Assembly (NCBI RefSeq): GCF_026210795.1
Contig: NC_089449.1
Coordinates: 186,001 to 250,000 of the forward strand
Direction: 5' to 3'
DNA: 64,000 nt
From: Rhizophagus irregularis
Lineage: Eukaryota > Glomeromycota > Glomeromycetes > Glomerales > Glomeraceae
Shown: piece after piece, positions 12,846 through 63,532 of the stretch
Numbering within the stretch: the first letter of the stretch is position 1
How the letters are laid out: every line of letters starts with the position of its first letter
Translations under genes and position numbers: made by a program
The notes under the pieces: model-generated
Database searches by the model: none
What the model saw: the letters and a program-made list of their open reading frames with translations, nothing else
Told to the model about the DNA's origin: nothing

Positions 12846-13035
12846 TGCTTCACCGCGACGAAGATTTCTTGCAACAAAAAATTTAAAAATTCAAATAATA
12901 ATAAAAAACAAATAAAAAAACAACAAATCTATAAAAAGCTCAAAGCAAATACCAAAAAAAAAACAAAAATCAAATTTCTCTTTTTTTCCCCCTCAATTAA
13001 AAAAACACACTTTTTTTTTTAAAAAAAAAAACATC

Positions 13036-13446
13036 ATGTCTGTTGTCGAAGGAATTCCAGCTCCTTATTACGTTACTTGTTTACATGAAGAAGGACGAAG
13101 TTATTACAATAATAAAAATCATGCATTTGAATTAAGAGTAAATGGTATTGATAGATCATTCTTCGTACATTTAGAATATCTTACCTCTCAATCAACATTC
13201 TTTCGAGATAATTGTACCGACGTAAAAGAAGGTGATCTAGTGGTAATTGATGTACCATCTCCCGAGACATTTGAGCCAATTATTGAATATTTATATTTTG
13301 GAAATGGTGATAAATGGTATGATACCATGACTATTGATAATTATGGTGATGTTTATCATAACGTTGAATACCTCGGTTTAGACGATAACGCAAAATCAAT
13401 TTGTCTTGCATTTTATCAAGCAAATCAATCCAGTTTAGAGGCGTAA
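13036..13446 (+). CDS. Small stand-alone BTB/POZ-domain protein
   Basis: This intronless 136-aa protein consists almost entirely of one BTB-like fold. Residues about 34-105 read FELRVNGIDRSFFVHLEYLT, SxSTFFRD, then VVIDVPSPETFEPIIEYLYF, the usual sequence of a mobilisable ligand-binding edge, the dimer interface and the Pro-containing PETFEPIIEYLY helix. BTB proteins normally dimerise or recruit substrates to Cullin-3; here no Kelch, MATH, TLDc or DNA-binding partner domain follows, and the last 30 residues are a short helical tail. The start is chosen because it is the first ATG after a clear leader (TATA-like box at 12838) and the BTB core begins soon after. AATAAA occurs at 13482, 36 nt after the stop. 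It is probably an adaptor or regulatory short BTB protein; the partner is unknown. Confidence 0.8.
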   Translation: MSVVEGIPAPYYVTCLHEEGRSYYNNKNHAFELRVNGIDRSFFVHLEYLTSQSTFFRDNCTDVKEGDLVVIDVPSPETFEPIIEYLYFGNGDKWYDTMTIDNYGDVYHNVEYLGLDDNAKSICLAFYQANQSSLEA

Positions 13447-22246: not shown

Positions 22247-24359
22247 TCATCTTACTACTAATGAAAGTTCCAAAGGATGGAAAGCCTTAAGAACCACGTT
22301 AATTGGTGAGCCCACACCATAATCCATCCCTCTTATTATTATTGACCCATGACTTAATGCTACGACATTCCCATCAATATCGAACCATGCACATCCTGAA
22401 TCTCCTTTATTCATGAATGTGCCTTTTTTAGCCTTTACCAATATTTGTCTGTCAAGCCATATATCTTTGTTTTTGTCACCCTCCATTAAAACATCATGGA
22501 AAATTCCAACTTGGCGTCTCATCATGTTTCCAGTATTAACTGAGACAGGAATTTCTTTAATCACTCCTTCGGTTAATCCAGTTGTACGTCCAACCTTAAA
22601 TATACGTCTAGATGCACTGTCTTCAATATTCTCCTTTAAACCAGAAAGACGTATATTAGGGATATTACAAACGTTGAACGAACTATTTCTAATAGCAAGT
22701 TTACTTGGGTTCAATCCTCGCTTGTCGGGTAGTACGAGGGCAATGGCGGCATCAACACCATACTTATATTGACCAAATTTATAATTACCACGTACGCCCT
22801 TTTCAATTAGAGCAAATCTAGTATCTTTTTGTTGCGCAGATTCGAATTTTTTTTTATTTTCTATACATGTCTGATAGCTTGAATCCAGAAATTCAAGTTT
22901 TTTAGACAATTTGTTCTTGAAAAATTCATAATCTGTGTTTAAAATTTCATTCCATTCCTTTTTCGTTTTGTTGAATTCACATTCGAGTCTATGCAGTTTA
23001 AGCATTATTTGTAATGCCTCTAATTTTTCTAGTTCTACTTGTAACTCCTTTTTTTTTTCGTTTTTTAACTTATTTTCTGTTCTAAACATCAATAATTTGT
23101 TGAGAGCTTCAAGCATTCTCAATAAATCCTGATGTTTTACATTATTTCCATCTTCCTCAACTATAACTTCTTTCAAGACTGAGATTACTGATTCTAATCT
23201 TTTTAACTCTTCCATATCTTCTGTCGAGGCTGAGTGACCATGCTCTTCATTCATTACATTCTTCGGGTTGAACGATTCAATCATAGTAAGTTTTTTCTCA
23301 GAATCGTTTAATAGTTTATCTTCAAAGATCAATTCCTCTAATGTTTCTAATGATGATGCCAGATCATCCAAAGAACGACCAATGTAGTCAAAGTCAGATG
23401 GTTGGTGTATATATTCAGAATTGTGTCCTGAAACAACATGTTCGTTTGTCATCAAATATATTTGCTGGTTGGAGTCTTTAACGAAAAGCCCTAAAGTTCC
23501 TACTCTACTGTTTACGCCAATACTAGATCCAGGTGATACCCTTTTCTTATATTCACAACAATCGATTTCCCCTCGTTCAACAATGGTTTGTTCATAAAAA
23601 CCTTCACATACATCTGTAATAAAACCGCCAATATTTTCAGGAAAAAGAGTGTTATTATGAGGTAATATATTCTTACGTATTACATAAAATACAATAGCAG
23701 GTACATTCTCGTAAAGTTCATTTCTAATTTTCCAATATAAACTAATAGCAATAAGGTTATGGTGTTTTGAACGAAAGTCATCCCCAAGTTCGGTATCTAA
23801 TATATTGTTAAATTTTTCTATATCTTTAGAGGAGAGTGCTTCCTGTGGTGGATCGTTTAGAGGTGAGTTTTCCGTAAAAGTTCCCCACTCAATATATCTT
23901 ATCATAAATTTTCCCAAATTTTGCAACTTTATTTCTGGCATTCTGTTCACTACAATGTACAAGTTTTGTTTAACATATGGTGGTTCTTCACTGCCAAAAA
24001 ACATATCCAATACATTCGGATCATTTAAAATTTTGTGAATTTCACACGCGTTTTCTTTAGTTATGTAAGGAACGTTATTACCTTGTAATAGAATAGTCAT
24101 AATATTAATAATAAAAATTAATGTTACAAATAATTACCAATGTTTATATTACCATTCTTATTTTCAACGTATTCTCTTTCTTCCATATCCTTTGAGGTTT
24201 TATCAAAATCAGCTGAGGAATTAAGACTGTTGCTTCGTACTTCAACTATATTGTCAGTAATAGTTAGAATAAATACAAAATTAGATCTTTTGTCACACAA
24301 GATCACAAACCTGTCATATTGACGCTTCTAGTATCAATCTTGGCAACGGTAATAGACAT
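22247..24359 (-). CDS. PA-clan (trypsin-like) serine protease with a coiled-coil insertion
   Basis: Three exons on the minus strand: 24311-24359, 24153-24245 and 22247-24081. All junctions are GT...AG and the joined frame gives 658 aa starting MSITVAKIDTRSVN. Catalytic triad candidates are His262 (LMTNEHVVSG), Asp491 (KYGVDAAIALV) and Ser609 (NKGDSGCAWF), in chymotrypsin-fold order; VGRTTGLTEG lies at 544-552. No signal peptide is seen, so it is probably cytosolic or nuclear. Residues about 281-471, between His and Asp, are Glu/Lys/Leu-rich, predicted coiled coil, a long insertion for this fold. The N-terminal 220 residues resemble no domain I can name. The start is inferred: the ATG at 24100 would lie inside the second intron of this model and give 617 aa. 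It could be a chaperone-like or regulatory protease of the kind expanded in Glomeromycotina. Confidence 0.8.
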
Positions 24360-27843: not shown

Positions 27844-30605
27844 AGCTCTGATATTATGTTCTATAACATCAGTTATGCCATACAACCCCTAAGAATTACA
27901 TGGAGAATGGGAGCAATTAATAATTCGACCACAGATACACAGTATCCCTTGGATATTAATAACAAGTATTCGAATACAAGAAAATGGCCACATGATATAA
28001 TTTTTTAGTAATCGATAAGGATTCAGAAAAATATCTTCTCGTTGTTTAATAGCGTAGTATGATACTTGGGAGCAAAAAGAAATAATTCATTGCGAAACAA
28101 AAAATAAATATGTGTAGAAGCATGTTATCATGGAACTCTTTACGAGTGACATTTAGAAGGTGGAAATGTAACAAAGATATTGCATACAAAACATGGTGTC
28201 AAGCTTGTGGTCTTATTTAGACATGGAAAGACTGGAAAGTGGAGATAAAGTTGTGATTATTGATCATTGTATGATATCACGTGAGGATGCTGTGCACAAA
28301 CCAATCATGTGTTACTGCGCCTACTCAAAGCATAATTTCAATGTGAAGAGAAAAGTTGTTTGCATCTGCTATGCAGCAAAGTGGAAGAATACATCAACAG
28401 TATATGCTATCAAAAAGGTTTAACTTCCGTATCTAGTAATTTCGTATACTTTTTTTTAAAGCGTAATATATCTCCTCCTCTGATTCCCAAAGAACATAGT
28501 TCTGTTAGCTCTTTTCTGACCCCACGGTATATGAAGGTGTACCTAAATAGAAAGAAAATGCACTAAATGCAGATTGCTTGCAAATGGTAATTTTGATAAT
28601 AAAGAGTTATCTTAAAGTATTACCTTGTTTTATACGCTCTTCTATAATTTTATTAATTATATGATGAAGCTCGTGAAACTCGTAAGAAAAGGTAAATTCA
28701 GGCTTTTTAACAAAAATGTGGAAATGTTTTTTATTGGAAGACGGGCTGAAGATATATTTAATGGTTTGTATTGGGTTTAGTATTTCTTTCCATGTAAGTC
28801 ACCCTCAACATAGGTGTCAATATCGGGATAGTTTTCGAGGTTCCGCAATTTTGCTTCTTCATCAAACGGAAGGTATATTTTTCATAACACTATATCATTA
28901 GGGTCGGTGTAATGAAAAACACTCTTCTTTTCTTTCCTAATCCAATGCTTAAAATGAAAAATTGTTTCTTCAGACTCTGCTCTATTGTGAATGAATACGG
29001 GAAACTATTGCGAATCTCCTTGGAGGAAGCACCAGAGCACATATTCTGACATAGTTGCAAAACTTATATTTCCAGGTGGAAACACCTACGGGTATTGTGT
29101 TTTCAGATTGAGAAGAAAAAACGATAACAAGAATATATGAATATATCTGCATGAAAATATAACCGGTATTAGACAATCGTAGGTAATATGATTAGCTAAC
29201 TTTACGTATAATGACGCAATAAATGACTATTTTTTTTGGAAGTAGAACAAACCAACAGAGTTATTTCCTAGTTACATATAAAATATGCTGATATATTGTT
29301 TCTCGATTGTAAATCTTGCAAGAGCATTATGCCATCAAATGATAATTATATATTTTTATGCTGTATTGTGAAAAACAGCAATCGTTTAGAAAAAACATGG
29401 GACTCGAAACTAGTTAATTAAAACATCACGTATATATCAGGAACAAAGTCCCAACAAATAACTGTTTTCCGTACTCAGAAGTCCAAAAAGGAGAAAACAG
29501 CGGCCATTATAAATGCCAACATACGTTTCTCATCGTAATTTCTTCTATTTATTAACTCTACTCCATGTGAAAGGAATGTTTACAAGATCATTAAAACAAA
29601 GGAAATAATCGCACATGAAATCGATTAGAACTTCTCTGAAGCTTGTAATGTAAAATAATGGTTATTTCTTGTTACCCTTAAAAATAACTAGCTTCTATGG
29701 AAAGAATATGGCGCATTGTCCTAGCCTGACGTTGGACTTTTTGTTGTTCAATAACAATTACCTTCTCTCGAAACAAACTATATCAAACATGTAAGTCGTA
29801 TCCAAGTAACATATGTATACCAATAAAGAAATCAACAAGTAGCCTATTATTCTTCATCTATTTAATCGTAAATAGTACTACGATTCTTACAAAATATCAC
29901 GAGACAGAAGCTATCAATAATATAAGGAAGGATTCTCTGATACCAAATCATGCCCGAAGAGCCTTTAGTATACTTGTCTGCAGAAATATTCATCTGGATT
30001 AGTTTGCGTATTATTGGTTTCTTAAGGATAGTGACATCTAAAATATTTTTTCATGGAGGGATAGAACTCGTGAGAACAAGTAGTAGACAAATACTATGCT
30101 CATATCGGTTCCTCACGGCGTTGCTTCCGAAACAATAACTGCTCATTTGTGTCCAGGGATTTTATTTATTGTTCCGGCGGATAATACAATACAGGTAAAA
30201 GGTATATCCACGGTATGGAATAATCATCACAAAAAAAATATAGATTAGCTGTCATCATGTAGTACAATGTTTGAGAAAGCCATAACTACGAGACAGTGTC
30301 CCTCTGGTCACGGTTAGCTTATTTATCGGACCGACAGAAAAAACAAAGAATGCATCGAATATACATACACATGAATGACATGATAAAATGGTTTACATAC
30401 AATTTTGTACACGTGTTTGTATTCCAGTGGCCATTTTGTTCACTCACATAATTGATTATATAAAAATAAGAAAACTCTTTCTGACGATCGTTAAATACCA
30501 AAAATTCACAGAAGAAATTTTCACCATAAAAATACATTTCTCTATAGACAAGTGTCATTTTTTCTACAAATTTTGGTCTCTACGCACTCCTCGGAACATT
30601 ATCAT

Positions 30606-32748
30606 ATGAGTTTTGCTATAGGAAAAAAATTTTCAAATAAATTCCTTAAAAATTTGGAAAAAAACTATCGTTCTATTTCTAACGACGAGGATATATATCT
30701 CACCTACTCGTCTTCCAACAAAAACAAATTCAATATGACCTCTAGTCAACCTGCAGCGCCTTCTCAAACTGCTAACAACACTTCAACAGACACAACTATG
30801 GAAGAAGCAACGACTTCTTCTCCTACTCATGCTCTTTCGCACAGCGAAATTGAACTTACATCACGTGACTCACATGAACAAGATGTTCACACACAAACAC
30901 CAATCACTGACAAATTGACTAATATGGATGTAGATCCCATAGATACTAACACGGATAAAGGAAAATCACCGGAAACACAATCAGCCACACAAACAAACAC
31001 CCCTAATCCGTTACATATTACGGTGCTAACAGATATATTTACACATACACCACAAGTTTCAAACAAAGTTCACAAAGGATTTATTCCTAGAGATAGTTTT
31101 CAGTCAAAACTTTCTAACAACGATATTATCAATCTAATCAAAACGTCATTCATTAAAGATAGCAATGCTTTTAGATTTGACGTCAATACAACGTCCACTT
31201 ATAGATACTTTACCATCCATTTCAGAACACGTGACTCGCTCGACCAATACATAGCAAATAGTCCCTGACAACCTCAAAAACATAAAAATTTACGAACTCA
31301 CCAATGAGGCTATTAATACGTTAATAGAACAAAAATTCTCCAACCTAGACCAGGCTGTTATAAAAATTATGGATATACCATATAATTATGATACCTCCAT
31401 GCTTATTAAGCATCTCGCTGCAAAAACAGGCAGCAATATCATAGAACACAAAGAAATTAAAAAACCTCCAAGAAAAATTCCTAACCGCAATAACCGCGGT
31501 CGTCCTATTTTCATAAAACCAGCTTATAAGCAACTTATTGTCCAATTTGACAAACAAGCAGCATATGATTATTTCATGAAAGAAAACTATTGGAGCCTCG
31601 AAATAGAAAATTTCGTAGTAAGGATCTTACCTGGTAACACTGAAGACCCTGAATATAAAATACGCACCAGTAATTATTTTAAGATCACCGGACTTCCCCT
31701 TAACACCACAGCCAAGGACATTGAACCTCTTATCAAACACGTCTACGGACGAACTTGTACATTTACACAAACTACCAAATATTCAACCATGAAAAATGCT
31801 TATATTTACGTCTCACCTAACAATTATCCAGTGGACGCGTCCAATGGAGCCTCCTCACTTTTCGAAGGATACAACCTCCACGTTCTACCAGGACACCTTT
31901 CACTAAAAACATGTAATATTTGTGGTTCACCACTTCACGAGACAAATATCTGTGACGACAAAAACTTCGATACAGATCATAATAATCGGAAAATCTTCAA
32001 AAAACGATTTATTAAACGTAACGAGGAAAAAATTACAATCAACGATAACCACAGAACCAGGTTTAATCACGTCATCACTTTAAACGCAAACAAAAGATCT
32101 CCCTCAATGTCACACGACCCGAAAACCAACCATACACCACCGCATAACTACAATAACAAGAAATACCAACAAGCAGACAATCCCCAAAGGTCAGACACCA
32201 ATCGTTATGAACAACGAATTACACAATTGGAACGCCAAGTTGAATCCCTCTTAAATAGTGTTAAAACACTCCAAGAAGGAAAATCTAAAGTCGATAATAC
32301 TATCGCCGATATCCATCACAATCATAATTTAATGAGTTCTTCACTCAATGACATCACAATCAGACTTGACAAATACGACACAATCCTACAACAGCTCACG
32401 ACTAATATTAATCTACTTAGTCAAGAAAAGATTACACAACATAGAGAACGTAACGCCAAACCACCAAAACGACCGTCACCGTACGAGCAAACTTCGTATA
32501 AGGCAACTAAAAATAGATATAACCTAAGAGGCAATAAACAGGGAAACATATCAGCGGAAGACAGCGAACAACACCATTTGGCAACTGATGACGATACCGA
32601 TGCCCCTGACGACGCCGCGATGTCAGACGGTGCCGTCTTCGAAGGAATCATTGACGAAGTGTCAAATGCTTCATCATCTGAGCCTAAATTTTCAGTTAAA
32701 TCCTACAATCCCCTCAACCTCCTCCCGCAGTTTAATGCGACACGTTAA
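30606..32748 (+). pseudogene. LINE ORF1 protein (RNA-binding, CCHC zinc knuckle), one frameshift
   Basis: From the ATG at 30606 the frame runs to a stop at 31266-31268; the downstream frame is open from 31261 to the stop at 32746-32748. Ignoring a single base near 31260 joins them into 713 residues. The N-terminus is Ser/Thr/Gln-rich and probably disordered. Two RRM-like segments follow, then a zinc knuckle CNICGSPLHETNIC (31912-31953, C-x2-C-x4-H-x4-C), then a coiled coil (about 32210-32440) and an acidic tail. ORF1 proteins bind the element RNA and chaperone target-primed reverse transcription. The coiled coil lies after the knuckle, unlike mammalian L1, where it is N-terminal. The break is probably an inactivating one-base insertion; a +1 programmed shift is possible but less likely. 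Confidence 0.85.
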
Positions 32749-32881
32749 TATACGTGTTTACCATTAAATCAAATATATCCCCCTTTTATTTTGGACATAC
32801 TTTTTGGATTTTCCCATTTTGATTTTAACGGTTTATTATTCTTTTTTATACACATTGATTCTTTTTACATACTTTTTTTTT

Positions 32882-35800
32882 ATGGAATACACCAATTTAC
32901 AACCCCCGGCTGACCTCGAAAATCAGCCTTCAGAACCAGTTCTACAATATTCTTATAACAAATATAATAAAAACACAAAAACACAAAAAAATCATAAAAA
33001 TCCCCAAAACCACAAAAATAATAATCAATACCTCCATACCCCAGATAATAATGATATACCAACAATGAGTTCACGAAACTATATTCGCGAACCTCGTAAT
33101 GATGAAGACGAAAATATGTTAAACCACATTGAACACCATTTATTTGATGACCAGGATACAAGAGGGTCAACGTCGTCTACCTCTCAAACACACGACGCCC
33201 CCATATCAACATCTTCTCAATTGCGAACACAATTTATTGATTACTATAAATTTGGTACAATCAATATCCAAGGAGGATTCAATAATAAATTGAATGATAT
33301 TCTCCACTTTTTTACACTTCATAATTATGATATTTTAATTTTAACCGAAACAGGTCTCCATCAACATATTAAAATAGATAGAGATCATAATAAAACAACA
33401 TACTCCACGTTTCCACTCCCAACACTGAATGATGATAATACTATTCATAATATTCATCTTTATACAGATGACAAAGGCAACACCAAAGGCAGTGGCGTCT
33501 CAATGATAATCACGGATCAATTACAAAAACACATTATCAGAACCAACACTTTTTATGGCCGTATTTTAACGGTCGATCTATGTTTTAAAGGCAACCATTA
33601 TATTAAATTTATATGTTGTTATTTACCTGCTAATGCCGTTGATGACAAAGATTTAATTATCAAATGTTACAAAGAAATTGAAAACATTTTGATCAAGGCT
33701 AAACACGATCATTTTGAATGTATAGTTTTAGGCGACTTTAATATTAGTTTCGACAAATTTAAAAAAGCCAATCACTATCCTATTTGGAGACGTGAAATCA
33801 AAACAATTTTAAAAAATTTTGACCTTAAAGATTTACTTAAATCCTTTCACGATCACCCGAGCCCGACTCATACTACCAAGAGAAATGAAGGTCCAGATAT
33901 ACAGTCTCGTATAGATTATATTTTTACCTCACCTCATATCTTTCACCATAGCTTTTATGCTTACACTCACCATATTTCAGCAGATTTTTTTACTACAGAC
34001 CACCAGGCTCTCAGTTGTTATTTGACGCAGGATTATTTTAAAAATAAATTCAATAGCTCTAGGAAAAGCCTAGAAAAATCACCTACGTACAAACCTAACA
34101 CAGACCTGAAAATTCATTTTAAATACCATTTAATGACCACCGAATCTTGGTCTAATTATAAAGTTACCAATGGTATTATTTATCGACAACACATTAACAA
34201 ATCAATTTTACCAAATACAACACCAGAACAACAAATAGAATTATATTGGTCAAATATCAAAGATATTATTATACAAACAAAAGAGAAATGTATCCCTTAT
34301 TCCTCATATAAAAAATATACGAAACAGGAGCGACCGTTATCATTACGACAAAACAATAACAAGATACTTTTACTTCGTATGATTCTACGAAAATTTTCTA
34401 ATATCAAACTTAATAGACTACAAGGTGATATGGATAAATGGAAAGATTATTGGAACACCTGGAACAATTCGCGTAAACAAATTTTTGTTATCGACGTCCA
34501 TTTTAACGCCAAACGTACTATTTGGCTACCGTACACTTTGACGCCGGATAATATATCCGATGTCAAAAAAGATTTACAAAGTCTTCTACGTATATCTATT
34601 GTTTTGCACAAACAAGAAGAAGATTCATGGACTCTAAAAAATATTAACAAATACGTTAATGACAGGAATAATAATTTAATTCATAATCAAAAAAGAATGA
34701 TTAACAGTATCCTTAATCGAAAACCTCAAAAGATAACATTAGATCGTTTACATTATTACGATCATGAAACTAATCAATTTCAATTTACTAACAATCCTCA
34801 TATTATAGCAGAACAATCAAATTTACATTTTCAACGGTTAGGAAAAGACCTTAACGATATTAATAACGTCAAAGAATATATGACAATTCAAGACCTCCCG
34901 TTATATTGGAGATCAACTTACGAACCCATCAACAACCGTGATTGCAAACATATGACTTCGTTAGAGGACGAATTCTCAATTGAAGAATTATCCCAAGTCA
35001 TCTCATCACTCCCAAACAACAAAGCCGCAGGCATTTCCGGCATCACATACGAAGACATTAAACATACACACCAAGACTTTAGAGAATATATTAATAAATT
35101 TTTCAATTATATCTTGCAGGTCCAAATTTACCCACGGGACTGGTTACATGCTTTCCTTTTCCCCATACCCAAACCTAAGGCTTGGGACTGCAAAATTGAA
35201 AATACTAGACCTATAGTCTTATTGGAAACATTTAGAAAATTATTCGTTAAAATTTTGACACAAAGAATTAATATCAAGCTTACAACGTATAACCTGATTA
35301 ATGAAAATAATCGGGCCGGCCTAACGGGACAATCAACGTTACAACCGCTACAAGTTATTCAACACATAATTGAATCTGCTTACAAAGATAAGAAACCATT
35401 ATGGATTGGTTTACAAGACCTCAGCAAGGCTTACGATAGAGTTAATAAATCTCTATTACGACTAGCATTACAACGCCTCCATTTTCCCGATACGATTACC
35501 ACTCTTTTAATTTCTCTATTTAGTAATCGGAAAAATAATGTTATTTTACCCTTTGGCTTATCCGCCGATTTTGATGTACTTCAGGGTATTGACCAAGGAG
35601 AAGTCATCAGTCCGCTATTATGGATTATTTATTATGATCCCATGTTCACACACCTTTCACAGTTAACCAATAACCTTCATATTACCAGCGTCAACAAAAT
35701 TACTAATATTTACCAACCTGACTCCGACCTTCAGATTAATTACTCAGCATCTGTGGTGGGTTATCTTGATGATACCAGCTGGTTTGCATCTTCCAAATCG

Positions 35801-38800
35801 CAGTTGGAATCCAATCTCCAAATTGCGAATTCTTTCTATGACATGGCAAATATTACCATTAATCATGACAAATACACCATCCTTACCAACATTCCTAAAT
35901 TTTGTAACAAGGAATTACAATTTCAAGTCACCCCTGACAAATCAATAACGATTAAAACAGCGTCACGGGCCTCATCTAATCGAATTCTTGGTATTTATAT
36001 TAATGCATTCAACTCACACACGCCGACGCTTAAAAAGATCAAAAAAATAATTAATCATTTCGCGTATACAATGCGCTTTAAAAAGATAACTCATGATCAC
36101 CTCATTTATATTATTAACAAAGTATTATTACCTAAATTAGAATATATCAATCAATTTACTATTTTTACAAGGTCACAATGTGACCTTTTATTAGCCCCTG
36201 TTAAAAAACTTTTTAAACAACATTTAAAATTACCAATTTCTACACATAATAATATTATTCATAACAAATTATTTCCTTCTATTAATAGTTTTTTTTATAA
36301 CCAATTTTATTCACATATATCAATTGTTAATGTTATTTTTAACACCCCTATGTTCTCCACTATTGGTTTACAAAAAATTTTGAATACACAATATGAATTT
36401 TGGATTCCCAATTTCCCGACGTCTAAGGACTTAGTCAACCCTATTTCGTCAAATTATCAATCCCTTTTGACTCGACAATTACGTTTATTCAACACGTTTC
36501 ATATAACTTTTTTACCACACTGTAATACGTGTATCACTGGTGGTGGTAATTCTATAGTTTCATATTTTAATTCATTTAATTCTCTAGATTCTTTATCCAC
36601 TAAAGACCTTCAAAGTTTACGGAAAAAACGTATAATGTTTATGGATCAATTAACATCCCTTGATGGCTATTTTCTAAGTACTTGGAAAGACGTTAAAAAA
36701 CAAAACCCCAAGGCCAATTTCAAAGGTCCTACGCCCAAGTGGTTTCAAAATCTTGAAAAATTTAACATTTTGGTGAACGATAGTTCACGTCGCCTCTTAC
36801 GAGATTTAATGGTTTCACCCCCAGCCAGATTTGATTCTATGTCTCCTTCTATACGAAAAGCATGTAAATATCGTCCCAAAAATGAATGGACTATTTCCTG
36901 GGACGCAGTACACCAGTGTGAACTGTATGGCAAGACGATTGAACAACAAAATGATTTATACGGTACCAGCCTCACTTATCGAACACATTACCTTCCAGAG
37001 GTTAACGCTGATACTAGAATCAACTTGACACCCAAAAAAGTAACCCCTATTCTACGACCTTGTACAGGTCACTGTGGTCATAGCGTACCTTTTAGTGGCG
37101 ATTTACGCCCAAAATGTGTTATTGTTTCTTTAACATCACATTTAATTCTTTTTAATGTTCACGCAAAATCTTTTATACCTAATAGACCTTTTATAAAATT
37201 AGATAAATCTTTTATTTTCCCAACTACATCTTTACACACCCTTCGTACTCAAGCTTTTACATATAACAAACATAGATTAATTGTACCTAACGTTTTACCC
37301 CCAATGATTCCCATTCTATCCTCTTTGGACTCATACTTAGAGGAGAATCTTTTTTTATTTACTAATAATTCAATCAATTTAAATTTAAATATCTCTTCCT
37401 CCCTTTTTATTAAAAATATTTTTGTAGGAAATAGAGATTTAATTATTCAACTTTTAGAAATAGCTAAACAATTTTTACTTCGAAAAAAATTTATTTTTTA
37501 CACTGATGGTTCTTTTTCCCCTATAGATGTTAATTCTTCTACTCAAACTCAAATGGGTTTTGCTTGGATCGAGATTACTGATGCAACTCCTGATTCTGGA
37601 CCTCCTCCACCATCTTACAAAGGCGCTTTATCTTTTAATCCGTCTTCTACTAAAGCGGAAGTGTACGCGCTTTTAACAGCTATTATTGCTGTTCCCGATG
37701 AGAGTGAATTGGATATTTTCACAGACTCGTTGAACGTCATTCATACCTTCCATGCTGTTACAAACAAATTGACTTCCATCAGAAGAAAGCTGAAATGCAA
37801 TAACCATTTAGCGTGGCGTTTGATTGACACGTTAATTATGAAAAAATCATTGATCGTCCACCTACACAAAGTCAAAGCTCACTCCAATGATTTTTGGAAT
37901 GATATGGCCGATAGCTTAGCTAATGCTGCACGTCAACTTGCACCTTACGAGATTAATCCTGCAACTCTACCGGGTTCTTTAATGACCCCTATTTGGGCCT
38001 CTATTGCACCAATTGACCGCGACATTAGAAAATTCTGTCATAATCTTACAGATACTTACACTTTTAGTCAATTTTTGGGTAATTCTTCACTTTCACCCAT
38101 TTTCGATAGATTTCCCTTGTTCTCAATACATTGGCCTCTAACTAGAGCGTGGTTACAATTTAATCCCACGTCCGATGTATGCAGTTCTACCAAATCATCA
38201 CACAACGCTTTTAAAATTAAAGCACTTAATCATATTCTTCCTTGTGGTGACGTCCTTACCAAACATTATCCTGATCTTTATCCTGACAATCATATACCTT
38301 GCCCGGTTTGTAACAACCATCAAGATACTAATGAACATTTGGGAATTTGTTCGAAACTTTTACCTATAATCAACACTACCCTATCAGAACATAAAGTCAT
38401 ATTACAACATCTTCTTGAGAAGCATACTTCCTCTAATCCTATCCTTATTAAACAATCCATCGATCGATTTGATCTCCTATTACCGATCTCGGAGTCAAAT
38501 TCTTTCACTCATCCAATATATTTAATTATACACCAACTTGTTTCACAAGACTTTTATAATTTAGTACGATCTTTCACCTTTAATGACAAACTTACCCGTT
38601 CAATCATATGGGAATTTTTAACCTCATTTCACGAACGAATCTACCAACAAATATGGCCTAAACATTGTTCTCTGTTGAAATTGTGGGAACTGCGTAATGG
38701 AATTACGCCCAAACGCAAACGCGATTTTCGTAAGAAAAAACCTTTGAAGTCACGTGATCATAAAACATCACGACCTACTACTCGCTCTAGAGTTGCCTCT

Positions 38801-39109
38801 ACTTCTCATAACAGATCACAAAATCTTTCTCAACCCAGAGTTAGGACGAACTTTTTACCCCCGGATGGTATTTCTCGCCGATCACTTCATCCTTGGATTT
38901 CCTCGGCCCCGTCTACTCGCCCTTCTCACTTACCGCAAGTACCGATGTGGTTGATTTTGTGCACTTGTAATTTTTTACACTCTGGTGGATGGTTATCTTC
39001 TGTCCGGCACCCTAGTAGTTTTGAGTTAGATATAGATAATTTTTCTTCTTCATGTAATTTTAATTTTAATTTTTTTAGTTCTTCATTTGCATTTGATAGT
39101 CCGTTTTAG
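32882..39109 (+). CDS. LINE ORF2: AP endonuclease, reverse transcriptase, RNase H
   Basis: One intact frame of 2075 codons from the ATG at 32882; the open frame extends 26 codons upstream but without an ATG. The AP-like endonuclease is at about 33250-34020, with FGTINIQG, LTETGL, LGDFNIS, SRIDYIF and TTDHQALS carrying the catalytic Asn/Glu/Asp/His set. The reverse transcriptase is at about 34980-35900: LQDLSKAYDRV holds the first Asp and GYLDDTSWFA (35759-35788) the catalytic YxDD, where most non-LTR RTs have FADD. RNase H at about 37490-37950 has FYTDGSF, TKAEVYAL, IFTDSLNV and NDMADSLANAA, supplying the Asp/Glu/Asp/Asp residues. A CCHC knuckle CPVCNNHQDTNEHLGIC follows near 38300-38350, then a basic tail. 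It nicks target DNA, copies the element RNA and removes RNA from the hybrid. It should supply mobility if ORF1 is provided in trans. Confidence 0.95.
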   Translation: MEYTNLQPPADLENQPSEPVLQYSYNKYNKNTKTQKNHKNPQNHKNNNQYLHTPDNNDIPTMSSRNYIREPRNDEDENMLNHIEHHLFDDQDTRGSTSSTSQTHDAPISTSSQLRTQFIDYYKFGTINIQGGFNNKLNDILHFFTLHNYDILILTETGLHQHIKIDRDHNKTTYSTFPLPTLNDDNTIHNIHLYTDDKGNTKGSGVSMIITDQLQKHIIRTNTFYGRILTVDLCFKGNHYIKFICCYLPANAVDDKDLIIKCYKEIENILIKAKHDHFECIVLGDFNISFDKFKKANHYPIWRREIKTILKNFDLKDLLKSFHDHPSPTHTTKRNEGPDIQSRIDYIFTSPHIFHHSFYAYTHHISADFFTTDHQALSCYLTQDYFKNKFNSSRKSLEKSPTYKPNTDLKIHFKYHLMTTESWSNYKVTNGIIYRQHINKSILPNTTPEQQIELYWSNIKDIIIQTKEKCIPYSSYKKYTKQERPLSLRQNNNKILLLRMILRKFSNIKLNRLQGDMDKWKDYWNTWNNSRKQIFVIDVHFNAKRTIWLPYTLTPDNISDVKKDLQSLLRISIVLHKQEEDSWTLKNINKYVNDRNNNLIHNQKRMINSILNRKPQKITLDRLHYYDHETNQFQFTNNPHIIAEQSNLHFQRLGKDLNDINNVKEYMTIQDLPLYWRSTYEPINNRDCKHMTSLEDEFSIEELSQVISSLPNNKAAGISGITYEDIKHTHQDFREYINKFFNYILQVQIYPRDWLHAFLFPIPKPKAWDCKIENTRPIVLLETFRKLFVKILTQRINIKLTTYNLINENNRAGLTGQSTLQPLQVIQHIIESAYKDKKPLWIGLQDLSKAYDRVNKSLLRLALQRLHFPDTITTLLISLFSNRKNNVILPFGLSADFDVLQGIDQGEVISPLLWIIYYDPMFTHLSQLTNNLHITSVNKITNIYQPDSDLQINYSASVVGYLDDTSWFASSKSQLESNLQIANSFYDMANITINHDKYTILTNIPKFCNKELQFQVTPDKSITIKTASRASSNRILGIYINAFNSHTPTLKKIKKIINHFAYTMRFKKITHDHLIYIINKVLLPKLEYINQFTIFTRSQCDLLLAPVKKLFKQHLKLPISTHNNIIHNKLFPSINSFFYNQFYSHISIVNVIFNTPMFSTIGLQKILNTQYEFWIPNFPTSKDLVNPISSNYQSLLTRQLRLFNTFHITFLPHCNTCITGGGNSIVSYFNSFNSLDSLSTKDLQSLRKKRIMFMDQLTSLDGYFLSTWKDVKKQNPKANFKGPTPKWFQNLEKFNILVNDSSRRLLRDLMVSPPARFDSMSPSIRKACKYRPKNEWTISWDAVHQCELYGKTIEQQNDLYGTSLTYRTHYLPEVNADTRINLTPKKVTPILRPCTGHCGHSVPFSGDLRPKCVIVSLTSHLILFNVHAKSFIPNRPFIKLDKSFIFPTTSLHTLRTQAFTYNKHRLIVPNVLPPMIPILSSLDSYLEENLFLFTNNSINLNLNISSSLFIKNIFVGNRDLIIQLLEIAKQFLLRKKFIFYTDGSFSPIDVNSSTQTQMGFAWIEITDATPDSGPPPPSYKGALSFNPSSTKAEVYALLTAIIAVPDESELDIFTDSLNVIHTFHAVTNKLTSIRRKLKCNNHLAWRLIDTLIMKKSLIVHLHKVKAHSNDFWNDMADSLANAARQLAPYEINPATLPGSLMTPIWASIAPIDRDIRKFCHNLTDTYTFSQFLGNSSLSPIFDRFPLFSIHWPLTRAWLQFNPTSDVCSSTKSSHNAFKIKALNHILPCGDVLTKHYPDLYPDNHIPCPVCNNHQDTNEHLGICSKLLPIINTTLSEHKVILQHLLEKHTSSNPILIKQSIDRFDLLLPISESNSFTHPIYLIIHQLVSQDFYNLVRSFTFNDKLTRSIIWEFLTSFHERIYQQIWPKHCSLLKLWELRNGITPKRKRDFRKKKPLKSRDHKTSRPTTRSRVASTSHNRSQNLSQPRVRTNFLPPDGISRRSLHPWISSAPSTRPSHLPQVPMWLILCTCNFLHSGGWLSSVRHPSSFELDIDNFSSSCNFNFNFFSSSFAFDSPF

Positions 39110-40008: not shown

Positions 40009-41533
40009 TTAATTCGCTTCCTGTGATGAGAGTACATCCTGTGATTGGGATAAATCTTGTGATGAGGGTACAAGCATATCTGGTCTTGATAGTCGTCTTT
40101 TCCTATAAAAGTATATAAGAAATGAAGCCCCTATCAAAGCAAGCACGATTGATAAAATTATAATTCCTATGGTAAGATTTTTGGTTTGAGTACTTAGATT
40201 TTTGTTTAGATTTTTATATATATTTAGATCTGGATCAAACTCGGTAATCCATTTGTAATTAGATTTATCGTGCGTGTCTAAAATAAATACTTCATTTGAT
40301 GTTGGTAATGGTAATTTAATATCATTTTTTCCGAAAGCCACGATCATATAATAACCGACCAAAGTAGCCGTATGGTAATAACGTGAAAGTGGTGAATTTG
40401 TGGAGACATACGCTTTTGACCATGTATAATCAGCTTGTGATGTATCTAATATCACAAGATCATCTTTTGCAGGACCACCTTCCTTAGTAAGGCCTCCATA
40501 CACGATAATACGACCATCTTGAGCTATATAATTTAGAGAACAATTTAATATATCATATTTACCCATTTTATTAAATTCACAAAAATAAGATTAAAGATAT
40601 AATTACTCAGAACAGCAGAATGGTATGCACGAGGTGTTGGCGGATTACCGATTGCATTCTGAAATATAAATGTATTTTATAAGAGAATGAACGATTAACT
40701 TAATTTAAAAGAAACACCTTACCATTGAAGTCCATGTATTATTATTTGTATTATACAAAAGTAGCTAATTTTTTTTTTTAAAAAAAAATGATCAGTAAAT
40801 ATATAGTTTAGACTATCAATTAATCAATTAAACGGTGTCGATTTACCTCTGACATTTCTGCAAATCCTTTGCCATCAGGTAAGCTACCACCTATATAAAT
40901 AATATTACCGTTTGGTAATAATGTACCCGTATGATCAAACCTAGCAAAATCTATACTAATATTTTGCCACACTAGCGTCGATGTATCCAAAATATTCATA
41001 AATTTATTTGTAGTATCAGGTTTTGGTCTTATGCCACCAAATATATACATTGTTCCAGTTCTAACATCACAAACGGTTTGGGTCTGGCTGTGATAATTTA
41101 ATGAAGGTGGATTGGCGGTCGTAAAGCTGTTCCATTGACGTAAACTTAACTTGTAAGTGTAGACTGTTGGATCTTCAAGATTGGGGTCATTGTATTCTCC
41201 AGGAAACAAAATTAGAGTATCATCTTGTCCACAATTTGAAAACGCGCTCCATGCATGTTCTGGAAGAATTTGCGCCTCGGAATTAAGATCCACCCAAGGT
41301 AATTTATCTCCTGTTCCGACTCCAAAGGGTTTCTCAACGTCTAAATAATAAAATTCTTTGGAACGAGTTGATCCTTCAAAACCAATCGGGTTTTTGGGAA
41401 TGATACCACCTGTAATATATATTCTAGAATCTGCAAATACGGCGCTGTGGCCCCAAACTGTATTGGTAGGGGTGAAAGCCAAAGTGAACTCATTAAGATA
41501 CAGGCAAATAACGATCAAGCAGAGGAAAAGCAT
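40009..41533 (-). CDS. Kelch-repeat single-pass membrane protein
   Basis: Four exons on the minus strand: 40847-41533, 40723-40764, 40607-40658 and 40009-40523. All junctions are GT...AG, and the joined frame is 431 aa. A signal peptide (LFLCLIVICLYL, about residues 2-20) leads into Kelch-type beta-propeller repeats with the usual GG doublets and Tyr/Trp pairs: RIYITGGI, GTMYIFGGIRP, NIIYIGGSLP, RIIVYGGLTKEGG and the D-S-x-W / N-T-W ends of blades (NNNTWTSM, DYTWSKA). A transmembrane helix (TIGIIILSIVLALIGASFLI) near residues 370-395 is followed by YRKRRL and a Ser/Gln-rich cytoplasmic tail. The propeller should face outside or the secretory lumen. This architecture is common in large fungal families; ligands are unknown. 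The two small exons encode one propeller strand each. Confidence 0.88.
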
Positions 41534-42339
41534 TATTAATAATCATAAAGGAGTTGAAAATTACAATAAGAGGCTAATATTTAACGATGTACAAATTGTG
41601 TACCACTTAAAGGTACCTAATGGCTAATGGTACAGTGACATTTTCGATGCTACTTAAACTTAAAATGCCAAGACATTGTTTTACGTAAATGTGTACGACA
41701 TACCAATTCCGCAATCTATGCTAATTATGATCGACAAGGCAAATAACGGCATGTCACATGTAAGTAAGGCATAATTATATCATCATTTGCAAAATAAATA
41801 AATAATAATAATAATGATGATTTTCTAGATTATCTCGTCATAATATATTCGACCAATCAGTTTTTGAATTTGCTAAAAACAATTTGCACTACAAATTACT
41901 GCGCCCTTGTGATACGCGTGTCCAGGTTCGGTAATAAAGTTTAAGTTTTGAACAAATACGACCAGTCAGAGACAGAAAATTTTCGAAAGCAATATTTTGA
42001 AAGAAATTGAAATTTTTTTTATGTATATCGAAAATAATCTAAATAATAAAAATACTTTGTGTTTCTTTAAAGCAGTATTAAGAGTTTGACAAAGTTTCTT
42101 ATTCGGTTAGTATGTTCAATGTGATGTGTTGAATCTACTAATAATATTAAGTTACAATTCGAAGTTTCTTTAATAAAAAAGTGGTAGTACCATTATACCA
42201 AATCGGGTATGTCCAGTGATTAATAATACGTGCCGATACAAAAATTTTACCGGGCAAAGAATTAAAATTTTTCCGGAAAAGAAATCCGGTTCAAAAAATT
42301 TTACCGGAATTTAAAGTTATCTATTAGTTATAGTGAACT
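41534..42339. other. Intergenic, upstream of the Kelch gene
   Basis: AT-rich DNA without a supported gene. Near 42250-42310 the words TTTTACCGG and TTTTTCCGG recur in AAAATTTTACCGGG-like contexts and lead into the tandem repeat at 42340. A short frame at 41358-41627 runs antisense to the first Kelch exon and is not credible. Confidence 0.4.
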
Positions 42340-45148: not shown

Positions 45149-45720
45149 TCTGCTTATTTACTATGTTTTAATCGTTATAATAATTGTTGATGACAAATTC
45201 TGAATGCAACATAAAAAAAAAATAAAATCTACGGTGTTTAGTACTTAATTTTTAAACATAATAAAGAACAATACCGATATTCGGTATTCAATTATTAAAA
45301 TTTGATATAAATTATTATAAGTTACAAATCGTGAGATATGTTTTGTACTCTGATAATTAAAAAATATATGAAGTCATTTTATTACTACCTTTTTTTTATA
45401 CGCGGTATCGCGGTATTAAAATAATTCTTCCAAGTGATCTCTCTGACATGTAAAACTTATTTAAAAAATTTGGCTAGCTTTATGATTGTTAGTTCGACAT
45501 TGTGGCGTAGTAAACGGATGATTGATGTACAAAATGTAACACGGAAATTAAGTTGGATATTCTGCAAATAAATGCAAATGCAGCTACTATTTTTTTCTGA
45601 GCAAAAGTTTCTATAATAATTTAACTAAATTTAGCACCATATTATTCATATATCATTGCACAACCTGGTACAGCTTCTTTTTTTTTCTAAACTTTTTCCT
45701 TCTTTCAGTTTCCAAAAAGA
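45149..45720. other. Leader and intergenic region of the F-box gene
   Basis: AT-rich, without a gene. The last 60 nt before the ATG at 45721 are pyrimidine-rich (T/C runs, TCCTTCTTTCAG), as in other leaders of this window. An AG at 45708-45709 after that tract could also be an intron acceptor, in which case an upstream non-coding exon is possible. Confidence 0.4.
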
Positions 45721-60000: not shown

Positions 60001-63000
60001 TTTGGAGGATGAATTATTATGGTGCTTATCTTGTATAGGATATCAAATTTCCAATGAATCATGTTATAATGATTATATTAGGTATGTTGATTTTTTATTA
60101 AAGTTATCTATTTATATTAAAAAAAAAATAATAATTTAATTTATTTCTGCAGAACGTTAAATAAAGAAATTTTGGACAATGCACATTTCATCCAATGTAT
60201 AAAGGAAAAAGTTTATAAATGGATTTTTGAAAATTGTAATGATTGGCAGTTTGAAGTAGCTAAAAATCAAGATTATTTAAGCCAATTTACAAGTCTTTTA
60301 CTAGCTTTACAAAACTATGTGAAAATGATCGTTAAGCATACCATAGCAAAAATCTTATATTCACTTGAAAAATTATTAGTAACAAAAACATATTTTACTT
60401 TCGAAAAAATTGATGATGATGAAATAAAAGCAGAACTATCAGGCTTATGGAAACGATGTTTTATGGATAATACAATTATTAATATTAATAATTTACCCGA
60501 GCCAAAAACTTCTAAATACATAATGTCATATTATGTAATTGATGAACTTAAATTTCCTTTTTCATATTATTTTTTTAATCAAATTAATTCCTACAAGTTA
60601 TATTATGATGAAGAATTAGATATTTTAAAACAAGATTTAAATAATATTGATGAGAAATCTAATGAATTACATATTGATTTGATTGAAAATCATATTGAAA
60701 AATTTAAGAATAAGTTGTTGTCTACTAAATCAAATTTTAGAATATTACAAAAATATTCAGAATTATATTATAATGATTTTATTAGGATATTATCTCAGAG
60801 AATTAAAAAATTAAATCATGTGAAAGAGTTGGATTTTATTATTAAACATATAATCGGAGATAAAATAGTTTCTAGTCCATTCCTTCTTCATATTTATTGG
60901 TGGAATCATGCAGAAAGTATTTTAATTCAGTTACAGTTAATTGAAATGTTTCCAACTACTTTTGAAAAAGCTCAAAAAGATTTTATCATTTATGGTAATC
61001 TTGATCAACTCCTTTTTAATGAAGCAATTAATTTTATTTTACAAAAAATTTATTATAATGAGGAATGTGAAAAAGAAATGGATATTGTTTTATCCTTAGT
61101 TAATAGGATGAATTATACAAAAAAACTTACAAATCTTCCTTTGTTACAGATATGTAATGAATTGTTAAAAATCAAATTAATTCCTCTGGAAAAAATAAAA
61201 GAAATGATTAATTTAGGAAGAGCTAGAAGACAAGAATTTATTACTATAGAAATAATTGAATTAGTATTATACATTTTAGATAATAATAATGATTTAACAG
61301 TAACTAATATAAGATCCTTTATTATGAAATGTTTAGAAATTATTCCACTTGAATCTGAAGTTCGGTTAACTCTTTACAGAAATTTATTTTTACAAAAATC
61401 TTTTAATTTAACTAATGAAATTATTGAAAAAATGTTTATTGATGAAATTCAACAAAATGATGAAATATTTTTTACGCTGATTAATAGTTCCAAACAAGTA
61501 TTACAACATTCAATTAGATTAAATGTTATTAATAATTGTTTGGATGATAATAACTTGAATACAAATATAGGAGAACTCTGCTGTGAAATAATTCAAGCAA
61601 TTTTCGGTAGATTTGAATTGAAAAAATTAATTTCTTATTTCCCTAATTTTATTGAAGATACAGAAAATTCAGCTTTACAACATATAACCGTAATTGCATT
61701 TTTAAAGGAATTTACAGTTAAATTCTGGAAGGACTATATGCAAGATGAAAGTTCATTACCTGAATCATCAATCAAAATGGTTAATGAATATGTGAAAATT
61801 AATCATCCCTTAGTTCAATCGTTCAAATCGTATTTTTTATTTAAACAAAAAGGATTTTCAGTAAACAAAAACCAATTGAAAATAATTTCAAATGAATTTC
61901 CATGGATTGAAAATGATTCTAACGAAAAAATACCTTATTATTCAATATTTTGGAAAGTGATTAGACAAGTGAATTTTGAAGATTTTCACACTTTTTACAA
62001 TAATAATTTAGATAGTTGTATTAACTATCCATTTTTGCTGGTATATATTAAATATTATGAAAGATTAAAATTAGTTAAATATCTTTATCCAATTGTTAAG
62101 TTTATAAAAATTTTAAACTCAAAACTTGAGTATCGTAAATCTAGAAAATCAGCTCAAATGATGACATTTCATGAATTTATTGAAGAGGAATCTAAAGATA
62201 ATACTGTAAATGGAGATTATTTGAAATCTTTATTTGAAGGATTTGCATTAAGTTGGAATTCTGTAATTAATTATATTGATCAATATCGATCTAAAGAATT
62301 GTCTAACAAACCATTTATGAATCTCAAATGTTCTGTTATTTATGGTTTAATTGAACAAAAAGATGCAGGAGTTTATCTATGCGCAATTTTAGAATTTTTG
62401 ATTAAAATGCATAATGAATTTTTGGATAATGTTTTTTCTATTCCAGTAGAACAATGTAAAAGTCTTAAATTTTTAGAACATTTATTACCTTGCAATAATC
62501 CGGCTTATTTCACTAAATCAATTATGATAACTCAAGCACAAGAGATTAATTTTATTAATTATGAATTAGATGAAAAATTTTTAAAATATAGTCAAAGAAA
62601 TCTTGATCAAAAAGATGAAATATCATTTAATTTTAATTTACAACAGATTGAAATGCTGCTTATGAGAGAATTAGTTATTGACAAAGTTTATTTTGAAAAA
62701 GGAAATAATCAATTTTATTTCGAAGATTTTTCATTCAAACATGAAATATTTCATAATACACCTAGAATTTTCTTTAATGTAAGAGAAGTATTACAACAAG
62801 AGCCTATTCAAACTGACAAAATTAAATCATTTTTGGTAGCTTTACAACCCTCAAATTCTTTTATTTCAGAATTGCTCTTGATTTTTGAAATAATTCTTTG
62901 TTTTATAAAAGAGTTAGCAATTAACAATAATGAAATACTTATTGAAGATTTTATTAGGCAATGGTCAAAATTATCAAGATATAATATGATGCTAACTGAT

Positions 63001-63532
63001 ATATGTGAAGAGTTTTCTGAATTTTCTCTAAAACATATTATAGAATTATATGAATTGATCGAACAACAAGATGCTGATTTATTTAATAATACAATAATTG
63101 ATGATAAATTTAAAATTCCATTAGAAGAACAGATGAAGAAATCAATTAATGACTGTATAGATTATTATAATCAATCAGAGTCGAAAATTTCTGCTAAAGT
63201 ATTTGCTCTTGCTTTAAAGAGGTTTATTTATAGATTTTTATCAATTGATTCTAATATTGAAAATTTAAATTTAACTAATTACTTTTTGGATTTTACGTTA
63301 AATTTATGGCCAAATTATATTAAGGAAGAATTGGTTGAAAAATTGTTTCCAACTTGTTTACTTGTATCACATGCTTATAGTTGTTATATTTTTATTAATG
63401 AAGAAATTGAGGTATGTATATTAATAGGTTTATTATTTATTTTATAATTATATGATACTAATTTGATAATTCTGTTAACAGAAAATAAAGGAAAAACAAA
63501 ATAAAGAAAAGAAATTAAAATTCAAATTATAA
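51004..63532 (+). CDS. RNF213/mysterin-like AAA+ protein, copy 2, complete, without RING or RZ finger
   Basis: Twelve exons: 51004-52763, 52848-54557, 54648-56511, 56592-57526, 57608-57695, 57758-57884, 57964-58120, 58188-58701, 58792-58931, 59008-60081, 60153-63411, 63482-63532. The sum is exactly 3893 codons (3892 aa). Residues about 6-110 look like a CBM20 domain (HVHIPTGIENLGGYPVVIGD, ELGDW), as at the RNF213 N-terminus. An AAA2-like P-loop GQGKT is at 1417-1421. AAA3 has Walker A GEAGCGKTS (1772-1780) and Walker B LLFDEIN (Asp1828, Glu1829); AAA4 has GETGSSKS (2087-2094) and a Walker B ALFDHV with His2161 in place of the catalytic Glu. The C-terminal part parallels copy 1, but PWIENDS joins almost directly to the segment that follows the RZ finger there, removing about 420 residues. 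It may be a motor or scaffold without its own ligase activity. Confidence 0.9.

Follow-up and report, generated by a model that had tools for sequence, protein, structure and literature searches.

The window, a stretch of 64,000 nucleotides of the Rhizophagus irregularis genome, carries two RNF213-like genes and raises the question of what such a protein does when its RZ finger is gone. The case for or against a ubiquitin-independent job of the RNF213 AAA machine has so far been built on individual mutants studied in mammalian cells. According to the initial annotation, one of the two genes (copy 2) has lost the RZ finger still present in its paralogue (copy 1) by an in-frame deletion of about 420 residues.

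Copy 2 is an open gene without an RZ finger

Copy 2 occupies positions 51004–63532 of the forward strand. In our spliced model, in which the splice sites were set by hand, all 11 introns have GT-AG borders, there are no internal stops, and the 12 exons encode 3892 residues, so that the 12-exon gene described initially does keep its frame. Its CBM20-like start was also recovered: Pfam places a CBM_20 domain (PF00686) at 51082–51234 (+) in exon 1 with a score of 25.3 bits, above the cut-off of 23.3 (E 1.3e-5). Exon 4 matches RNF213 chains in phmmer with E-values of 1.6e-24 to 1.6e-21, which identifies the AAA3-AAA4 block as being of the RNF213 type. Exon 11 (60153–63411, +) is a single open frame of 1086 residues, which encodes an E3-module tail without the E3-shell/RZ segment, and exon 12 (63482–63532, +) adds a basic C-terminal tail of 16 residues and the stop. 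The CBM20 start, the AAA3/AAA4 block and the long C-terminal E3 region thus follow each other as in human and mouse RNF213 (mysterin). In contrast to RNF213, however, copy 2 is short (3892 residues versus 5161–5247 in RNF213 PDB chains), no RING was found in it, the RZ finger and about 415 E3-shell residues are absent, and the AAA4 Glu is replaced.

In an alignment of 29 paralogues, the junction lies at 61897–61953 (+), where FPWIEN (from 61897) is followed by YSIFWKVI (from 61939) in the same open exon. For comparison we used the last two large exons of copy 1 (2537–7279, +), the start of which lies outside the window, at about 179 kb of contig C21. The counterpart anchors in copy 1, LLPWLGS (4403) and SENLPNLW (5762), are separated by 429 residues, whereas the corresponding distance in copy 2 is 14, which amounts to a loss of about 415 residues and confirms both the place and the approximate size of the proposed deletion. 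The segment of copy 1 that is missing from copy 2 (4403–5761, +) includes an intron (5423–5503) and the ZnF_RZ domain (PF20173) at 4991–5134 (+), which scored 62.8 bits in a genome search and has an E-value of 1.8e-15 in the Pfam scan.

Neither RZ nor RING was found by Pfam in the eight of 12 exons of copy 2 that were scanned (the four outside the scan are short ones), and the ZnF_RZ search of the genome has no match in this gene either. The eight exons gave no match to the cross-braced Cys/His cluster of a RING, and the entire 3892-residue protein has one CxxC. The absence of a RING, which had been claimed at the outset, is supported by the exons scanned, but it is nothing special, as the last two large exons of copy 1 show no RING either and mouse RNF213 does not need its RING for autoubiquitination (PMC7311170, in excerpt). 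According to the counter-view, the RING matters in combination with UBE2D2 (PMC8831215, in excerpt). We rejected an unseen exon in copy 2 because all 13 RZ-less genes have a frame that stays open through the junction, and an RZ finger supplied by a neighbouring gene because no match lies nearby.

The missing segment in terms of mouse RNF213

A profile of three single-frame RZ-bearing rows (A7) aligns with residues 4364–4844 of mouse RNF213, and another profile (A1) aligns with residues 4336–4581. In the A7 alignment, the cysteine of the fungal GECG/NCGG motif is in register with Cys4462, the active site of mouse RNF213 (PMC12075652, in excerpt). The 3' border of the loss maps to about residue 4684 and the 5' border to about residue 4250, the latter being extrapolated by about 85 residues from A1. 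With these borders, both the RZ domain (4433–4499) and the E3-shell residues 4605–4618 are gone. In mouse RNF213, the E2 docks on the CTD, and E3-shell residues 4605–4618 make a secondary E2 contact (excerpt of PMC12075652).

As judged from the alignments, the C-terminal region, which in RNF213 houses the E2-docking CTD, is retained and conserved in the RZ-less tails. Tail residues 1021–1080 form the most conserved bin, with 30 of the 60 columns at or above 90% among the RZ-less rows (29/60 at residues 241–300), and this bin also has the largest number of columns identical in both clades (15). A third, collinear stretch of A7 lies in the CTD with an i-E of 8.8, which is below significance alone. 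No RNF213 match was obtained with profiles of 28 C-halves (all 29 paralogues but L033) and 29 N-halves, or with the RZ-less profile A2 (4 of the 13 rows). The AlphaFold2 model of the whole tail, calculated from three rows of the window only, had a mean pLDDT of 42.6 and gave no Foldseek match at E ≤ 0.001; the mean pLDDT of the C-half (two window-only rows) was 36.1. The statement that copy 2 has no known ubiquitin-transfer module is correct insofar as the RZ finger is gone and no RING was found, but is too strong because the conserved C-terminal region, which in RNF213 houses the CTD, stays.

The loss is shared by a clade of paralogues

Exon 11 of copy 2 served as the query in a search of the 32 contigs (146.7 Mb) of the genome, in which 42 of the 75 candidates were scored, so that all counts are lower bounds. 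Thirteen of the 42 matches run unbroken over the junction. The other 29 are broken there: they end at about residue 540–615 or start at about 545–600, and they derive from 16 RZ genes including copy 1. The genome thus contains at least 13 RZ-less and at least 16 RZ-bearing paralogues, and the loss, although real, is not the peculiarity of a single paralogue that it had been taken for. In all 13 genes the same segment is missing, with 14–25 residues between the alignment anchors, and the recurrence of the same borders in 12 further genomic copies makes chance or assembly error very unlikely. Three RZ-less genes (copy 2 among them) are on C21 and seven on C25, while C3, C8 and C28 have a single one each; the match on C28 starts without the first 106 residues of exon 11. 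Eleven of the 12 relatives are only 54–58% identical to copy 2 (the L009 tail is 76% identical), and the RZ-bearing tails are 37–42% identical to it over the shared part. Exon 1 of copy 2 (CBM20 and stalk) has a match upstream of each of the 13 tails on the same strand, at a distance of about 9–10 kb, or only 2 kb in the C28 copy.

The genome search for ZnF_RZ (PF20173) gave 26 matches, of which 16 are in RZ-bearing RNF213-like genes. The catalytic Cys is kept in all 16 of these genes, whereas copy 2 and its 12 relatives have no RZ finger with a catalytic Cys. Contigs C25, C3, C8 and C28 have no match, N-masked stretches apart. In this search both L031 and L035 carry an RZ finger, though their spliced tail models skip the RZ part, which has little effect on the tail trees and dN/dS values because these use only shared columns.

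The tail trees, which are unrooted, were calculated from 1077 columns common to both kinds with the missing segment excluded. A single branch separates the 13 RZ-less tails from all others, with an SH-aLRT of 100 in a short search under a mixture model; under LG+G4 the branch has a support of 100/100 and is present in all of 200 bootstrap trees. As the RZ finger sits at a collinear place in animal RNF213, it appears to have been lost rather than gained.

Nei-Gojobori dN/dS over the shared columns is 0.26–0.59 (median 0.36) for all 78 RZ-less pairs and 0.18–0.49 (median 0.28) for all 120 RZ-bearing pairs. It is 0.33 for copy 2 and its nearest paralogue, and the highest nearest-pair value in the RZ-less clade, 0.59, belongs to the C28 copy. 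We rejected decay of the RZ-less genes because every one of the 78 pairs has a value far below 1 and the long exon is open in 13 of 13 genes, and copy 2 with its intact frame is indeed not a decayed copy, as had been asserted. By these measures, the RZ-less clade is a maintained subfamily under purifying selection, and the constraint on its tails is perhaps slightly relaxed.

Seven RZ-less genes and no RZ-bearing one lie within 0.3 Mb of C25 (3120000–3427000 in G000). Two more CBM20/stalk heads are found at about 3.160 and 3.283 Mb of this contig, their tails being absent among the scored matches. The C28 copy (L047 and L020; G000:C28:1348345–1353401) is devoid of the entire AAA core in addition to the RZ finger. 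A single open frame leads from its stalk, which reaches the counterpart of about residue 686 in copy 2, straight into the part that starts at residue 2901 of copy 2, which would give a CBM20-stalk-tail protein. The head match of this copy has one in-frame TAA, which may be part of an intron.

AAA4 has lost its Walker B glutamate in most RZ-less genes

In copy 2, the AAA3 Walker A motif GEAGCGK (56491–56511, +) continues with TS in the next exon (56592), and the AAA3 Walker B Asp-Glu (56739–56744, +) is intact, with the Glu in register with mouse E2449. The AAA4 Walker A motif GETGSSKS (57516–57620, +) is split by the intron 57527–57607, and its Lys is in register with mouse K2736. The AAA4 Walker B (57878–57883, +) reads Asp-His in place of the Asp-Glu of RNF213 (mouse E2806). 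E2449 and E2806 are the Walker B residues of AAA3 and the Walker B Glu of AAA4 in mouse RNF213, respectively (PMC12075652, in excerpt). The Glu of VVLLDE in the RZ-bearing profile A8 lands on mouse residue 2806, where copy 2 has FDH. Copy 2 therefore does not have the two working ATPase sites of RNF213: only AAA3 looks competent in hydrolysis, and because of the DH in AAA4 we class copy 2 as a homologue and variant of RNF213 and not as a functional RNF213. The description of the protein as motor-only is accordingly doubtful.

The AAA4 Walker B Glu is missing in 10 of the 12 RZ-less genes that have an AAA core versus one of the 16 RZ-bearing genes. The corresponding Fisher p of 5e-5 ignores kinship, and the ten losses may represent one or a few events. 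The RZ-less genes have DN (L009, L010, L014, L016 and L017), EN (L015, L018 and L019), DD (L012), DH (copy 2) or DE (L011 and L013) at this site, and L013 has a Gly to Glu change in its AAA4 Walker A. The RZ-bearing genes have DE in 13 cases, NE in copy 1 and L027, and DG in L032. The AAA3 Walker B Asp-Glu is present in 12/12 RZ-less genes with an AAA core and in 14/16 RZ-bearing genes (L025 has DG and L027 has NG, as read by tblastn). The AAA3 Walker A Lys is likewise kept in 12/12 of these RZ-less genes, and the last Gly of this motif is changed in L016, L018 and L019.

Copy 1 (window positions 1–310, L053) has Asn for Asp in its AAA4 Walker B (LLNE, then GLDET), by which its own AAA4 may be weakened.

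AAA cores were exchanged between the two kinds of genes

A tree of the AAA3-AAA4 segment was calculated for 25 of the 29 genes (without L010, L025, L027 and L020, the last of which has no AAA core). In this tree, a single RZ-less clade is rejected (AU p 9e-6). L011 and L014 group with RZ-bearing L021 (85/84), and L013 groups with copy 1, L029 and L033 (97/94). The DNA identity of the AAA cores, introns included, is 87.8% for L011/L021, 84.7% for L013/copy 1 and 83.7% for L014/L021. In each stretch this high identity breaks off at about 3.9 kb, roughly 0.5 kb upstream of the last long exon; past this common junction there are just shorter matches of 65–73%. The tails of L011 and L013 are near-copies (dS 0.10), whereas their AAA segments are far apart (dS 0.65). 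Within the RZ-less clade, L010 is 87% identical to copy 2 in exon 4 and 58% in the tail, whereas L009 is 64% identical in exon 4 and 76% in the tail. From the tree and the DNA identities we conclude that RZ-bearing and RZ-less genes have exchanged AAA cores, which end sharply at a common junction. As L011 and L013, both of which have the AAA4 Glu, are among the three exchanged genes, an exchange that restored the Glu would fit, the direction being our deduction. Since their AAA cores were exchanged, both kinds of proteins probably share one assembly interface.

Possible function of the RZ-less proteins

The explanation that we favor, with a probability of about one half, is that copy 2 is a ligase-dead, assembly-prone RNF213-like subunit of a maintained subfamily that scaffolds or restrains the RZ-bearing paralogues. 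According to this explanation, ATP would be bound at AAA3 of the RZ-less protein, and the hydrolysis step at AAA4 that dismantles RNF213 oligomers could not be completed without the Glu. The RZ-less proteins would therefore sit in stable assemblies. Given the probable common interface, RZ-less subunits would most likely mix with RZ-bearing ones, and would act either as a scaffold or as a brake (a natural dominant negative) on ubiquitin transfer. A second Walker B mutation alone strengthens RNF213 oligomers, and a mutation in the first Walker A cancels this effect (Morito 2014, PMC3963067, in excerpt). RNF213 with a mutated RING or with R4810K still binds the wild-type protein and lowers ubiquitylation as a dominant negative (Bhardwaj 2022, PMC8831215, in excerpt), a precedent that concerns the RING and R4810K mutants and not the loss of RZ. 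An AAA4 Walker B mutation leaves the E3 activity unaffected in vitro (PMC12075652, in excerpt). The initial suggestion that copy 2 could be a partner or a competitor of the RZ-bearing paralogue is supported as a possibility.

Several observations count against the favored explanation. Four RZ-bearing genes (copy 1, L025, L027 and L032) have AAA3 or AAA4 Walker B changes too, the RZ-less tails are under slightly weaker selection (median dN/dS of 0.36 versus 0.28), and the AAA3 Walker A Gly is changed in RZ-less L016, L018 and L019. Locking at AAA4 would not be general, as L011 and L013 keep the Glu and the C28 copy is without an AAA core. The oligomerisation of RNF213 is disputed, no ATP-dependent oligomers having been seen in vitro (PMC12075652, in excerpt), and the human AAA4 Walker B mutant fails to coat pathogens (PMC11549300, in excerpt).

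A tentative and rather improbable extension is a two-tier RNF213 system, in which AAA4-locked ligase-less subunits form permanent assemblies that recruit RZ-bearing ligases, and AAA cores are shuffled between the two tails. If this were true, the relative amounts of the two kinds, rather than a single enzyme, would determine the ubiquitin output.

Alternatively, the RZ-less proteins could act alone and independently of ubiquitin, as an ATP-driven coat or scaffold whose targets would be membranes, lipid droplets, endobacteria or others, which we regard as unlikely but the best of the alternatives. Human RNF213 with a dead RZ still coats Toxoplasma vacuoles without ubiquitin (PMC11549300, in excerpt), and all 13 tails have the upstream exon 1 match (CBM20 and stalk). 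However, the same excerpt reports that human Walker A and Walker B mutants, among them the AAA4 Walker B mutant, do not coat pathogens, and copy 2 and nine other RZ-less genes are without the AAA4 Walker B Glu.

A remaining role of the RZ-less proteins in ubiquitin transfer, with the CTD docking an E2~Ub that is handed to the RZ finger of a neighbouring RZ-bearing subunit or with another cysteine acting in its place, is improbable. The conservation of the C-terminal end described above and the docking of the E2 on the CTD of mouse RNF213 would be in line with such a role. The CTD is also part of the AAA-E3 interface, however, which could explain its conservation, and the second E2 contact (E3 shell, 4605–4618) lies within the missing part.

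We give little credence to the notion that the RZ-less genes are relics of a dwindling branch in a birth-and-death family, with frames that are open only because the branch is young. In its favor, the C25 copies are clustered, and the copy on C28 lacks the AAA core and has a dN/dS of 0.59 and one in-frame stop in its head match, unless this is an intron. The low dN/dS of every pair and the open long exon of every gene are at odds with this notion, and an identity of only 54–58% between copy 2 and 11 of its 12 relatives means that the clade is not young. Finally, an artefact of assembly or annotation (a missing contig piece or an unseen exon) can practically be dismissed: nothing in its favor was found, 13 copies on five contigs have the same borders, no intron is needed, and the closest ZnF_RZ match to copy 2, at a distance of 46 kb, belongs to copy 1.

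Relation to known systems

The RZ-bearing paralogues (copy 1 and 15 others) are close relatives, and AAA cores in this group reach 84–88% DNA identity with those of three RZ-less genes, but they differ in having the RZ catalytic Cys (16/16) and the AAA4 Glu (15/16). The functional lesions of the RZ-less clade are the same as those of engineered RNF213 (delta-RZ, human C4516S or mouse C4462 mutants and Walker B mutants). The latter are laboratory changes, whereas the clade combines both lesions naturally. In pseudokinases and other pseudoenzymes the catalytic part is lost, the rest is under selection and the family is expanded; the RZ-less clade differs from them in that it has lost a whole domain and not just key residues. 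Our searches of the open-access literature turned up no account of RZ-less RNF213 paralogues, nor of an expanded RNF213 family in fungi of this kind.

With at least 13 RZ-less and at least 16 RZ-bearing natural versions in one genome, the question of whether the AAA machine works apart from ubiquitin becomes testable by evolution. In the sequences compared here, selection in the absence of the ligase seems to keep AAA3, the C-terminal region and the CBM20 head and to let AAA4 hydrolysis go. Research on the RNF213 family has treated it as an immune factor of animals; the genome described here shows that a fungus can have it in strongly expanded form.

Other RZ fingers and neighbouring genes

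In place of the mammalian C-x3-H zinc pair, the fungal RNF213-type RZ fingers (window positions 4991–5134 and L021–L035) have C-x-C-G and then a Tyr, Phe, Met or Cys. Six of the 15 RZ fingers read have Tyr or Phe instead of the proposed general-base His (mouse H4483). An RZ finger with a canonical C-x3-H adjoins NFX1-like cysteine repeats in L001 (233–1698; G000:C16:1709261), a gene which we presume to be ZNFX1-like. Other RZ matches outside RNF213-like genes are on C16, C26, C18 and C4, and several of them contain stops.

Between the two RNF213-like genes, the window contains a LINE-type retrotransposon (30495–39109), which encodes an endonuclease, a reverse transcriptase and an RNase H in one frame of 2113 residues. 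The neighbouring frames at 22250–24133 (−), 40823–41542 (−), 12916–13443 (+) and 45691–47334 (+) gave Nal1_C, Kelch, BTB and sub-threshold F-box matches.
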